A stretch of 64,000 nucleotides of DNA from Celeribacter sp. HF31 (GTDB taxonomy: Bacteria; Pseudomonadota; Alphaproteobacteria; Rhodobacterales; Rhodobacteraceae): positions 372,001-436,000 of the forward strand of contig NZ_JAATOT010000004.1 of the NCBI RefSeq assembly GCF_011806455.1, written 5' to 3'. Within the stretch, counting starts at the first letter, position 1, and each line of letters opens with the position of its first letter. This document shows, in pieces, positions 32,850-37,530 of this stretch. Position numbers and translations under genes: made by a program. The notes under the pieces are model-generated. The model saw nothing but the letters and a program-made list of their open reading frames with translations. It searched no databases and was not told the DNA's origin.

Positions 32850-33758
32850 ATGCGATTTTTCGCCCCCTGTTTCACCCTGGCCCTCCTGTCTTCGACGGCG
32901 GGCGCCCATGCGTTTTGCGATGACATTCTGGCGACGCAGGTGCTTTGCGTGACCGAAGAGGCCGAAGAGATCAAACTCTGCGGCGCGCAGCATCCCGAAA
33001 CGGGCGCCTCGGCTTTTGAGCTGCATGTCACGCCTCAAATCTCAGATGGGCCGCTCACCCAGCTGGCCCTCGACACGCCGTTCGACATGACGCCGGGCAC
33101 CGGGGGCTATCCTTGGGACAGCTATCGTCTGACGTTTTTGCATGAGGGCGGGCGGGCTGTCCTGAACATCCAAACTCCGATTGATGGGACCGGTGCGGCA
33201 GAGGCGGAGATTTGGCTCGATCTCTATCACCGGGATCTGACGCCCCTGCGTACGCTGTCTTGTCTAGCTCCAGCGCTCAGTGCCGAGGTGTCGGACATCC
33301 TTACGGCGCGTCGCATCGCGTTCAACAGTTTCCGCACCGGGCCAAGCCGAGAGAGTGCCGCCTATTATCAGCCCCGCATGCCACTTGTGGGCGCCGCGCC
33401 CTACGGTGGCGCCGAATGTCGTGAAGTCAGCGGTGTGATCAGCAAGAAAGGCACAGAGAGTGGCCAGATCGCGCTCTATGCCGCGCCCTTCGAAGAGGCG
33501 GCCATTTTGGGCTATATCTCGCCCTATGCCTTGAAGCAGGCGTTCGAATGCGATTTCGACAACGGGTTTTCCGGCATCATCTGGACCGACCCTGAAAAAG
33601 GCGACGGCGCGGGCGGTTACATGAAGGAGATGGGGTATGACGCCAAATTGGCGGCCTGTGGTTTGACTCCAGAGGGCTGGTCAACGGAGGCCGCCTATCT
33701 CGGGAAATGCTCCTCCGCCTGGGTGCATGAGGGCAATGTTGCCGGGTTTGAGCCGTGA
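32850..33758 (+). CDS. Secreted protein, third of the trio
   Basis: A 302-aa protein with signal peptide (MRFFAPCFTLALLSSTAGAHA), the motif C-x9-C-x10-C (FCDDILATQVLCVTE...KLC), the shared beta domain, then a C-terminal region (about 195-302) with an SH3-like pattern (SGQIALYAAPFEEAAILGYI) and four more cysteines, ending in a GYMKE...WVHEGNVAGF block. GTAAGGA lies before ATG 32850. The 34-base spacing keeps it in the trio operon. Function is not recognised. Confidence 0.75.
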   Translation: MRFFAPCFTLALLSSTAGAHAFCDDILATQVLCVTEEAEEIKLCGAQHPETGASAFELHVTPQISDGPLTQLALDTPFDMTPGTGGYPWDSYRLTFLHEGGRAVLNIQTPIDGTGAAEAEIWLDLYHRDLTPLRTLSCLAPALSAEVSDILTARRIAFNSFRTGPSRESAAYYQPRMPLVGAAPYGGAECREVSGVISKKGTESGQIALYAAPFEEAAILGYISPYALKQAFECDFDNGFSGIIWTDPEKGDGAGGYMKEMGYDAKLAACGLTPEGWSTEAAYLGKCSSAWVHEGNVAGFEP

Positions 33759-34080
33759 TCGATGGGGCGAGAACACGTCTCTGTGAACGCTAAAATAAAA
33801 AAGTTTCCTTTTATTCCAAAGGTCTTCGCCGCATTGCGGCGAGGTTGGGTTGAAATTTAAGACAGGGTTGCTACCCTATCACTAGGGTTCACGCGACGGA
33901 CCCGCTCGGCACGAACGCGTCCCAAAAGGGCTTAAACTGCGCATGTGTACGACCCGCTTGGCGCTGACCATGGTCCTCTTGGCCTGTCTTTGCCCCTTGT
34001 CGCGCGGCCAGTGTGGCGGGTGGGGCGCGCGGAACCTGAAGACCAGATATTGAGTTAAGAGCACCCAAAAGGAGCTCCCC
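33759..34080. other. Intergenic region upstream of gpsA, 322 bp
   Basis: No gene is seen. It holds an A/T-rich stretch (33790-33815), a hairpin TCGCCGC-ATT-GCGGCGA (33826-33842) with a three-base loop, a dyad ACCCT...AGGGT near 33873-33890, and a weak promoter-like TTGAAA (33850)...TACCCT. The gpsA Shine-Dalgarno AGGAG is at 34070-34074. Confidence 0.4.
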
Positions 34081-35202
34081 ATCAAGGATTCCATCTCCCA
34101 TACCCCGTCGCAGCCCTACGCCCGCGTCGCCGTTCTTGGCGCCGGCAGTTGGGGCACCGCGCTCGCCTCCGTTTTGGCCCGCAATGGCCGTGAGGTGCGC
34201 CTCTGGGCGCGTCGTCCGGACCTTGCCCAACGGATCAATGAAACCAAAGAGAATGCGGATTACCTGCCCGAGGTCGATCTTCCAAACGGTCTGACGGCCA
34301 CCTCTGATCTGTCAGAGGCGCTGGCCGGTGCCGAGGCCGTTTTGATGGTCACACCCTCGTCGACACTGCGCCCGATGTGTCAGGCCATCGCTCCGCATAT
34401 CCCCAAGGGCATTCCGATCGCGCTGGCCTGTAAAGGCGTCGAGCGTCGTACCGGATACCTCTTGTCCGAAGTGGTCTCCGAAGAACTGCCCGGCCATCCG
34501 GTCGGTGCCGTCTCCGGCCCGACCTTTGCGCGTGAAACCGCGCTGGACCATCCGACGGCGGCCACGGTCGCCTTTCCGTTTTCCTACGCGGATCGTCTGA
34601 ACCCAGAAAAAAGCCCGGCGGCGCGTCTGGCCGTGTCGCTCTCAGGTGGCGGCTTTCGCCCCTATGTCTCCGACGATCTCGTCGGCGTCGAAGTGGGCGG
34701 CGCGGTCAAGAATGTGATCGCCATCGCCTGCGGGATGATGTCCGGCGCGGGCTTTGCGGAGAACACCCGCGCGGCGCTGATCACCCGTGGCACCGATGAG
34801 ATGAAACAGCTCGCACAGGCCCTGGGCGGCTCTCGGGAAACCGTGACCGGCCTGTCCGGCGCGGGCGATCTGACCCTGACCTGTAGCTCCACCACTTCGC
34901 GCAACATGTCGCTGGGCTATCAATTGGGCCAAGGTCTTGCACGACCCTCCTGTTTCGAGGGCCGTCCCGTGGTGGTGGAAGGCGAAGTCAACTCCGTTTC
35001 TGTCACCGATCTGGCGCATCGCATCGGCGTGCCGATGCCGATCTGCGAGACGGTGCACGCGGTGTTGCACAAAGGGGCCGACTTGCAAGAGGCCTTTACC
35101 GCGCTTTGGGCCCGTCCCATCGAATCTGAGCCCAATGCGCTCACCCTCTCCCTGACCCATCCCACCCCTGATATGCCGCTGCAATTCGGAGATCCCTCAT
35201 GA
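34081..35202 (+). CDS. gpsA: NAD(P)-dependent glycerol-3-phosphate dehydrogenase, apparent ATC start
   Basis: The protein (373 aa if started at 34081) has the Rossmann motif VAVLGAGSWGTALASVLARNG, then KNVIAIACGMMSG with the catalytic Lys, and GLSGAGDLTLTC. It reduces dihydroxyacetone phosphate to sn-glycerol-3-phosphate. No ATG, GTG or TTG exists between the in-frame stop at 34051 and TTG 34174, and that TTG would delete the GAGSWG motif. A perfect AGGAG is six bases before ATC 34081, so ATC is the likely start. The stop overlaps the phosphatase start (ATGA). Context suggests it feeds glucosylglycerol synthesis. Confidence 0.88.
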   Translation: MKDSISHTPSQPYARVAVLGAGSWGTALASVLARNGREVRLWARRPDLAQRINETKENADYLPEVDLPNGLTATSDLSEALAGAEAVLMVTPSSTLRPMCQAIAPHIPKGIPIALACKGVERRTGYLLSEVVSEELPGHPVGAVSGPTFARETALDHPTAATVAFPFSYADRLNPEKSPAARLAVSLSGGGFRPYVSDDLVGVEVGGAVKNVIAIACGMMSGAGFAENTRAALITRGTDEMKQLAQALGGSRETVTGLSGAGDLTLTCSSTTSRNMSLGYQLGQGLARPSCFEGRPVVVEGEVNSVSVTDLAHRIGVPMPICETVHAVLHKGADLQEAFTALWARPIESEPNALTLSLTHPTPDMPLQFGDPS

Positions 35203-36017
35203 CTGTTCACGCCACACCGCGCCCGGCGATTGCCGCGCGCCGTTTCACCCTTGCGACCGATCTGGATGGGACGTTTCTGGGCGGCTCAGAGGAGGAGCGC
35301 AAAACGCTTTACGACTGGATCGAGGCCAATCGCGACACGGTTGGGCTGATTTTCGTCACCGGGCGCGACCCGGAGTTCATTATGGAGATGTGCCGCGAGC
35401 AGGGGCTTCCGTGGCCGGAATATGTCGTTGGCGATGTCGGCACCACGATTGCGCATGTGCGTGATGACGGTCATGTCGAACCGATCCCCGCGCTGGAGGC
35501 GGACATTGCCGAACGCTGGGGTGACAAAGGAAATGCGGTGCGCGCCACGCTCGATGGCATCTCCGGTCTGACGCTTCAGCCGACGCCGTTTCGCTATCGG
35601 GTCAGCTACGACCTGACGCCCAATGCCTATGACGCCACCGCCGAAGTGCTGGTCGAGGAACTGGGTCTAGATTGGCTCATCTCCGACAACCGCTACTTCG
35701 ACGTGCTGCCCAAGGGCGTTTCGAAAGGTCCGTCGATCAAGCGTCTGATCGCGCATCTCGGCATTCCCGAGACCCGCGTGCTTTGCGCGGGCGACACGAT
35801 GAACGATCTGTCGATGCTGATCTCTGGCCTGCCGGCTGTGGCGGTCGGCAATTCGGAGGCCCCACTCAAACAGCGGCTCTATGGCCGCGACACGGTTTAT
35901 CACGCGACGGGTTTCGGTGCCGCAGGCATCCTTGAGGCCATCAACGCGCTCGACCTGCATGACGCGCCCACGCATGCCGCGGTGCCCGCGTCAAATCTCG
36001 CCCTGAAAGGAGCCTGA
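35199..36017 (+). CDS. HAD-superfamily phosphatase (S6PP-like), probable glucosylglycerol-3-phosphate phosphatase
   Basis: The 272-aa protein has the HAD motifs: I TDLDGTFLGG (nucleophile Asp21, acid Asp23), II FVTGRD, III Lys in PKGVSKGPSIK, IV AGDTMNDLSML. The cap arrangement is that of sucrose-phosphatase-like sugar phosphatases. It overlaps gpsA by four bases and is one base from the GT20 gene. In other bacteria a phosphatase of this kind is fused to or adjacent to GgpS and releases glucosylglycerol. The substrate is inferred from this context only; trehalose-6-phosphate is an alternative. Confidence 0.85.
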   Translation: MTVHATPRPAIAARRFTLATDLDGTFLGGSEEERKTLYDWIEANRDTVGLIFVTGRDPEFIMEMCREQGLPWPEYVVGDVGTTIAHVRDDGHVEPIPALEADIAERWGDKGNAVRATLDGISGLTLQPTPFRYRVSYDLTPNAYDATAEVLVEELGLDWLISDNRYFDVLPKGVSKGPSIKRLIAHLGIPETRVLCAGDTMNDLSMLISGLPAVAVGNSEAPLKQRLYGRDTVYHATGFGAAGILEAINALDLHDAPTHAAVPASNLALKGA

Positions 36018-36018
36018 T

Positions 36019-37530
36019 ATGTCTTCCAATCTTGTGATCGTTTACCACCGCCAGCCCTACGAAGAGGTCGAGGTGGATGGAAAAATCGAATACCGCGAAA
36101 ACAAAAGCCCGAATGGCATCGTGCCGACGCTCAAAAGCTTTTTCGGACGTGTCGACAAGGGCGCGTGGATCGCGTGGAAACACGCCGACGATCCGGCCAA
36201 CCCGGACTTTGAGCGGGTGATCGAGATCGACGATGCTTATGGCAAATACACGGTGTCGCGTTTGCCTTTGACGCCGGAGCAGGTGACGAGTTTCTATCAC
36301 GTCTCCTCCAAAGAGGCCTTCTGGCCGATCCTGCATGGCTTCAAGGAGCGCTACAATTACGACCCCGTCGATTGGCCCACGTTTCGCGAGGTGAACTGGG
36401 CCTTTGCCGAGGCCGCCGCCGCCGAGGCCGCCGAGGGGGCTGTGGTCTGGGTGCATGACTATAACCTCTGGCTCGTGCCAGGGTACCTGCGCACGCTGCG
36501 GCCCGATGTGAAGATCAGCTTCTTTCACCATACGCCGTTTCCGAACGCCGATATTTTCAACGTGCTGCCCTGGCGCAAGGAGATTTTGGAAAGCCTTCTG
36601 GCCTGCGATGTCGTCGGTTTCCATATCCCGCGCTATGTGAACAACTTTGTCTCCGCCGCGCGGTCTTTGTTGGAGGTCGAGACGCTGAAACGCGAAAAGG
36701 TCAAACCGGAACTCGCGTCCGAAACCTCTGCGCTTTCCGAGCAATCCGTGGTGACCGAAGTGGGTTATAACGACCGCACCGTGCGGCTTCAGGCCAGCCC
36801 CGTGGGCGTCGATGTCGATTACATCGAGACCCTTGCGCAAAGCGACAAGACCGCGGCCAAGGTCAAGGAGATCAAGCAAGAGATCGGCGACGGTCAGTTG
36901 ATCCTTTCCGTCGGGCGCACCGATTACACCAAGGGCGGTATCGAACAGCTCGAAAGCTATGAGCGCCTGCTGGAAACCCGCCCCGATCTGCGCGGCAAGG
37001 TGCGGTTGATGCATGTCTCGGTGGCGGCCAATTCCAACATGACCGCCTATGAGGAAATTCAACGCGACCTCGAACATCTCGCCGGTAAAATCAACGGGCG
37101 GTACGGCACCTTTGAGTGGCAACCCATCGCGCTGATTTCGCGGCCTGTGCCGTTCGAGGATCTGGTGGCCTACTACCGCGCTGCCGATGTCGCCTGGATC
37201 ACGCCTTTGGCGGATGGCATGAACCTCGTGTGCAAGGAATATTGCGCCGCGCGCACGGATGAAGACGGGGTTCTGGTCCTGTCGGAATTTGCGGGTGCGG
37301 CCGTCGAATTGGCCGCCGCCGTGCCAACCAATCCGTTCTCTCACAAGTCGATGGACGGGGCGATCCAGTTCGCGCTCGACCTGCCGCCAGAGGAACGCCG
37401 AGGCCGGATGATCTCCAATCGCAAGATGGTCAAGCTGCAAGACATTCGCTTCTGGGCCGAGGATCAGATGCAGGCCTTTGGTGCGGGCGAGGTGCCAGTC
37501 GATCTGATCACAGGTGGCGAAGCGGCCTGA
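36019..37530 (+). CDS. ggpS: GT20 glycosyltransferase, probable glucosylglycerol-phosphate synthase
   Basis: A 503-aa GT-B enzyme of the trehalose-phosphate-synthase family with [45 protein letters not shown] and [15 protein letters not shown]. The N-terminus [23 protein letters not shown] followed by [14 protein letters not shown] resembles GgpS rather than OtsA. GgpS joins (ADP-)glucose to glycerol-3-phosphate. The adjacent gpsA supplies that acceptor and the HAD gene would dephosphorylate the product, giving the osmolyte glucosylglycerol. OtsA activity is not excluded from sequence alone. A 12-bp terminator stem follows. Confidence 0.8.

Follow-up and report, generated by a model that had tools for sequence, protein, structure and literature searches.

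Comparative evidence for a conserved AUC start codon of an operon-borne gpsA gene in Celeribacter and related Rhodobacteraceae

Organization of the gpsA locus

The analysed stretch of DNA (hereafter the window) comprises 64,000 nucleotides from Celeribacter sp. HF31 (contig NZ_JAATOT010000004.1, positions 372,001 to 436,000). It contains a gpsA gene (34081..35202, + strand) that is the first gene of an operon for the salt protectant glucosylglycerol and is followed by a gene for a HAD phosphatase and then by ggpS. The gpsA product was identified as an NAD(P)H-dependent glycerol-3-phosphate dehydrogenase (NF000942, 378 bits at a cut-off of 257; PF01210/PF07479). The gene is the second gpsA of this genome, with 42% identity to the other copy, and its nearest named homologues are four Celeribacter records that are 94 to 96% identical. 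The reading frame ends with TGA at 35200-35202, and its predicted start codon is ATC at 34081-34083. Direct reading of the frame after the preceding stop codon (TGA, 34051-34053) gives GTT AAG AGC ACC CAA AAG GAG CTC CCC ATC AAG GAT TCC ATC, and neither ATG, GTG, TTG nor CTG occurs in it before the TTG at 34174, exactly as a first-pass annotation of this DNA had stated. The two other landmarks named there are also in place, namely the Shine-Dalgarno (SD) motif AGGAG six bases upstream of the ATC (34070..34074, + strand) and a four-base overlap with the downstream gene (ATGA, 35199-35202). When translated from ATC 34081, the product matches PF01210 from profile position 2 onward with 175 bits, as compared to position 19 and 135 bits for a translation from TTG 34174. 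Since the latter match begins only at position 19, a start at this TTG would remove the GAGSWG motif; gene-finding software that accepts only ATG, GTG and TTG as starts would truncate the window GpsA at precisely this codon, inside the cofactor-binding fold.

The second gene (35199..36017, + strand), whose ATG overlaps the gpsA stop codon, encodes a HAD-IIB phosphatase (PF05116 S6PP, 152 bits; TIGR01484, 57 bits at a cut-off of 41.8). Judged by the operon context, its substrate is probably glucosylglycerol-phosphate, and the gene is referred to here as ggpP. Its SD sequence CGGAG (35187..35191, + strand) lies inside the 3' end of gpsA. Among 20 lineages ggpP starts with ATG in 18 and with GTG in 2, each time behind an SD of its own (mean energy -6.35), and in the majority of the 37 gpsA clade rows described below it overlaps gpsA or almost does. 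The third gene is ggpS for glucosylglycerol-phosphate synthase (36019..37530, + strand; TIGR02398, 667 bits at a cut-off of 569), which in the window, the copy whose start and SD were analysed, begins with ATG behind a strong SD (-10.7). An operon-dedicated GpsA makes sense in this arrangement, because GgpS uses glycerol-3-phosphate.

The gpsA start codon in related genomes

Inspection of the start codon in close relatives had been proposed as a check of the ATC start and was carried out here. In a survey of 20 Celeribacter genomes, 14 were found to carry the operon-type gpsA. Twelve of these, counting the window, have ATC as the orthologous codon, L010 has ATT and L012 (C. litoreus) has ATG, so that 13 of the 14 gene-carrying genomes have ATC or ATT. 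On the family level, 62 of 394 genomes possess an operon-type gpsA at E values up to 1e-100. Over all genera, 28 distinct non-AUG gpsA sequences were obtained (24 with ATC and 4 with ATT), which span at least nine genera including Celeribacter. Outside Celeribacter, ATC occurs in Pseudooceanicola marinus (two records), Albibacillus, Pararhodobacter marinus and a genome of the same genus (L220), a Rhodovulum MAG, Allosediminivita, Sagittula salina, Marinibacterium and two genomes of its genus, and L118, whereas ATT was found in P. endophyticus and two genomes of the genus Sagittula. Four further records (L219, L221, L226 and L227) are duplicates of L047, L043, L050 and L051.

Eight sister rows have ATG at the orthologous position; they represent Maritimibacter (five), Rhodovulum (L053 and L055) and L120, and their ATG is followed by Lys or Arg and then by Asp. 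ATG also appears inside the AUC clade, in C. litoreus (L012/L058) and in a member of the genus Pararhodobacter (L113); both have kept a strong SD and are useful natural ATG controls. In Donghicola mangrovi (L016/L046) and Sagittula marina (L047) an in-frame ATG overlaps or abuts the SD while an ATC at six-base spacing remains, which leaves the start assignment of L016 and L047 ambiguous. Outside the 37-row clade the codon labels were assigned by eye, and two of the sequences (L074 and L081) contain no ATG or GTG before the motif strand in the codons inspected. With ATC or ATT preceded by an SD at this position in nine genera or more, and ATG in its place in the sister rows, translation of gpsA very likely starts at ATC 34081. 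The ATC start put forward in the first-pass annotation is thus strongly supported by comparison.

Among the best 30 matches listed from a plasmid collection, none exceeded 69% identity to the window gpsA, and therefore no member of the AUC clade is among them. The 153-kb plasmid of Dinoroseobacter shibae carries a gpsA homologue (NC_009956.1, 38289-39350) that is 68% identical to the window gene.

Phylogeny and selection

A tree of 110 rows was calculated from the protein sequences without their N terminus by a quick method, with SH-aLRT values as the only branch support and without bootstrap; L217, L218 and L220 are not part of it. Every non-AUG row of this tree falls into one clade of 37 rows (SH-aLRT 90), which encloses an inner clade of 24 rows (SH-aLRT 96). 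The larger clade consists of 25 non-AUG rows, the two ambiguous rows L016 and L047, and 10 ATG rows. At least four changes of start type are needed on the tree if two states are distinguished and the ambiguous rows are counted as non-AUG.

Pairwise comparison of the window gene with five Celeribacter homologues yielded dN values of 0.009 to 0.088, dS values of 0.146 to 1.03 (dN 0.071 and dS 1.03 against L009) and dN/dS ratios of 0.06 to 0.11. The low dN combined with high dS indicates that gpsA is under purifying selection and that its synonymous sites have been heavily turned over. The comparison shows retention of the putative non-AUG start in a clade of Rhodobacteraceae despite this synonymous turnover. 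Some lineages can do without the weak start, as L012 and L113 have ATG.

The bases flanking the start are likewise conserved, within Celeribacter and beyond. All 24 rows of the inner clade have AAG as codon 2, and 23 of them have GAT as codon 3; elsewhere in the same clade, three conserved Lys columns mix AAG with AAA and nine conserved Asp columns mix GAT with GAC. At the start codon itself, 2 changes between AUC and AUU were counted over 27 rows, as compared to 2 to 5 changes in the 37-row clade (five conserved Ile columns) and 1 to 4 changes in the 24-row clade (six such columns). Selection for AUC over AUU is thus unsupported, the switching being about that of ordinary Ile codons.

This interchange is also what would be expected if the start codon were a neutral relic that drifted to AUC, with a strong SD compensating and the weak start being tolerated rather than used to tune the dose of the enzyme. 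The tolerance would then result from the presence of a second gpsA together with a modest need for expression, and both the ATG rows within the clade and the other gpsA in the genome agree with such a scenario. It is nevertheless considered unlikely. A non-AUG codon has persisted in 28 distinct sequences although AUG is a single base away and dS reaches 1.0, and the bases around the start are conserved in and beyond Celeribacter. In addition, purifying selection generally maintains AUG starts in prokaryotes, according to the available part of a published study (PMC5622118).

Shine-Dalgarno sequence and a candidate hairpin

The AGGAG motif of gpsA forms a duplex of -8.5 kcal/mol with the anti-SD, and the 16S tail used (GGATCACCTCCTTTCT) was found at the end of the 16S gene of the same genome. 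In all 28 non-AUG sequences an SD-like tetramer ends 6 to 9 bases upstream of the start codon. The mean duplex energy was -8.3 kcal/mol in 27 non-AUG rows (L016 and L047 included) versus -4.8 kcal/mol in the 10 ATG rows; the p value of 4e-4 for this difference is overstated, since related rows are counted and kinship is ignored, and the pattern by which the starts were located itself required K, R or Q followed by D, V or F after the start. Weaker SDs of -5.6 to -6.6 occur among the non-AUG rows in L049, L047, L042, L050, L051 and L119. The two ATG rows of the 24-row clade have values of -11.0 (L012) and -8.4 (L113), and the other eight ATG rows range from -2.8 to -5.2. Strong SDs combined with sub-optimal start codons are a known trend that differs between phyla, as far as the accessible part of the source goes (PMC5622118), and in gpsA the strength of the SD would offset part of the weakness of AUC.

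In Celeribacter the gpsA SD lies within a candidate hairpin, GAGC-A-CC-CAAAA-GG-A-GCUC (34059..34077, + strand, in the window), with a local folding energy of -6.6 kcal/mol. In other genera, such as in P. marinus, Albibacillus, P. endophyticus, L113 and L118, the arms differ in sequence yet still pair. When the arms were swapped between lineages, the pairing became weaker; depending on the split point, p was 0.005 to 0.03 in a set of 16 lineages and 0.03 to 0.10 in a set of 20, both sets including the ATG rows L012 and L113. An initial set of 13 lineages yielded 0.009 to 0.066, and for 15 non-AUG lineages, examined at a single split, the value was 0.16. The same test showed nothing in the controls, which were infC (p 0.48 to 0.65, 20 of 29 family loci) and ggpP (p 0.94 to 0.98, 20 lineages); eight ATG rows of gpsA yielded 0.12 to 0.16. 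In L016, L043, L045, L050, L051, L119 and L220 the structure is either weak or of another form. Shuffling of single sequences resulted in p values below 0.05 in 7 of 37 rows (L003, L004, L007, L010, L014, L016 and L044), and the Celeribacter rows among these share one hairpin, or nearly so. A search of positions 33700-34300 against Rfam returned zero matches up to an E value of 1. Taken as sequence patterns, these data are suggestive of a covarying hairpin around the gpsA SD.

Initiation factor 3 and a possible role of the weak start

The first-pass annotation had drawn a parallel to infC, and this parallel holds in the family: infC starts with ATA in 47 and with ATC in 2 of 49 loci (L140-L159 and L188-L216). 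All 20 Celeribacter loci have ATA, and the 29 other family loci comprise 27 with ATA and 2 with ATC. The search pattern admitted only ATA, ATC or ATT at the start and matched at 49 of 49 loci; the counts leave out 7 further family matches. Since infC starts with ATA or ATC in this family, discrimination of start codons by IF3 very probably operates in these bacteria, and a gpsA started by AUC would face it as well.

Translation of gpsA would be initiated at AUC 34081, where the AGGAG located six bases 5' sets the position and the initiator fMet-tRNA presumably reads the codon. Initiation at this codon is expected to be weak and repressed by IF3, so that synthesis of GpsA would be slower than that of GgpP and GgpS. 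Canonical starts, each with a separate SD, are found for ggpP in 20 of 20 lineages and for ggpS in the window. The weak start therefore sets gpsA apart and probably reduces the amount of GpsA compared with GgpP and GgpS instead of holding back the operon as a whole; translational coupling between gpsA and ggpP may still be relevant, given that the two genes overlap or almost overlap in the majority of rows of the 37-row clade. The lower level of GpsA would meter the use of glycerol-3-phosphate, DHAP and NAD(P)H by the copy dedicated to osmolyte synthesis, while the other gpsA would serve lipids, and the small hairpin at the SD may add a second restraint. A regulatory role of the AUC start is plausible, and the reading preferred here is that a conserved weak start probably holds GpsA low relative to its operon partners and exposes gpsA to IF3.

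A more far-reaching version, in which the AUC start and the SD hairpin together gate translation of the osmolyte operon like two locks, appears doubtful. Salt stress would then alter ionic strength and the availability of ribosomes or IF3, relax start-codon discrimination and open the hairpin, and synthesis of GpsA would rise when glucosylglycerol is needed. That salt would release translation in this way, by acting on the hairpin and on the stringency of initiation, is speculative. If it were true, a non-AUG start, retained in many genera and naturally exchanged for AUG in others, would serve as a valve by which stress controls a biosynthetic enzyme.

Alternative initiation sites and the upstream region

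Initiation at another in-frame codon is regarded as very unlikely; the candidates are codon 5, which follows the AAGGAT stretch, and a TTG or GTG further upstream. Codon 5 is indeed ATG in L011 and L015 and GTG in L043 and L220, that is in 4 of the 28 non-AUG sequences, and four Celeribacter sequences contain an in-frame TTG 10 codons upstream, but these sites are not shared among the relatives, codon 5 being GTT, GTA, GCC, CCC or ACC elsewhere. In the window the nearest stop codon lies nine codons 5' of ATC 34081, without a start codon between the two. While 15 of the 28 sequences have an ATG, GTG or TTG somewhere in the open frame, the window and 12 others (13 of 28) lack any such codon in frame from the last stop to residue 14. 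Both kinds of alternative start were rejected for this lack of conservation.

Slightly less probable still is that gpsA is translated by coupling to, or reinitiation after, an upstream leader ORF and does not depend on the SD and AUC. Short ORFs that end 4 to 46 bases upstream of gpsA are present in 14 of 14 Celeribacter sequences, among them in the window a 36-codon ORF (33943-34053) that ends just 5' of gpsA and is in the same frame. From one species to the next, however, these ORFs vary in frame, end and peptide, and the feature that is conserved is instead the SD at 6 to 9 bases from an AUH codon; coupling to a leader ORF was rejected on this account. A base error at 34083 that conceals a true ATG is practically excluded, as eleven other Celeribacter genomes have ATC at this position.

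Further upstream, a block of about 60 bases (33981-34041, TTGCCCCTTGTCGCGCGG ... GGGTGGGGCGCGCGGAACCTGAAGA) is well conserved in most of the 14 Celeribacter sequences and least so in L014. This block is possibly a promoter or a regulator site; a promoter scan of positions 33750-34150 revealed no sigma-70-like site.

Comparison with known systems

One known case of an AUH start is infC, which starts with ATT in E. coli. Like infC, gpsA has an AUH start behind an SD and would be subject to discrimination by IF3. Unlike infC, which encodes IF3 and is thereby part of a feedback loop, gpsA would be a follower outside the loop. The pcnB gene of E. coli (AUU) resembles gpsA in that it encodes an enzyme and that its AUH start is inefficient and limiting, as described in the accessible part of the literature on it; it is not known to be a case of a within-operon ratio. 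In Streptomyces, infC starts with ATC according to the available part of one report (PMC5472188).

The same part of that report describes the sigR-rsrA operon of Streptomyces, where sigR starts with GTC in 32 of 34 species and with GTT in 2, has a strong ribosome-binding site (RBS) and was measured to be repressed by IF3; rsrA has its own RBS, so that the weak start of sigR sets the ratio of the two products (PMC5472188). The likeness to gpsA is considerable, since both are first genes of an operon with a conserved non-canonical start, a minority variant in the third base, an extensive SD and a downstream gene with its own RBS. In contrast to gpsA, sigR codes for a sigma factor and uses GTC, and its repression by IF3 was measured, whereas that of gpsA is deduced. 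Outside Streptomyces, that study found no evidence of such a start in actinobacterial genera (PMC5472188).

Two genes of Staphylococcus aureus, ccpN (AUA) and cvfC1 (AUU), also combine a conserved AUH start with a strong extended SD; cvfC1 is moreover first in its operon like gpsA, and ccpN is tied to carbon metabolism, another likeness (available part of PMC13009471). In poor medium both give about 10% of the expression obtained with AUG, and ccpN reaches up to 30% in rich medium. They differ from gpsA in being a regulator and a small protein of Firmicutes and in having initiation profiling and reporters behind them. The citZ gene, which encodes an enzyme, has an AUA start in one S. aureus lineage, as given in the same portion of the source (PMC13009471).

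Well-supported non-AUG starts outside infC are few, and among the titles and abstracts listed from the open-licence PMC literature none reports a gpsA started by AUC. By the comparative evidence, gpsA would join the small class of genes with conserved non-canonical starts, within which it is notable as a gene for a biosynthetic enzyme, for its occurrence in many genera and for its natural ATG variants. The ATG and ATT variants in close relatives make the role of a weak start codon as the setter of an enzyme ratio directly testable.
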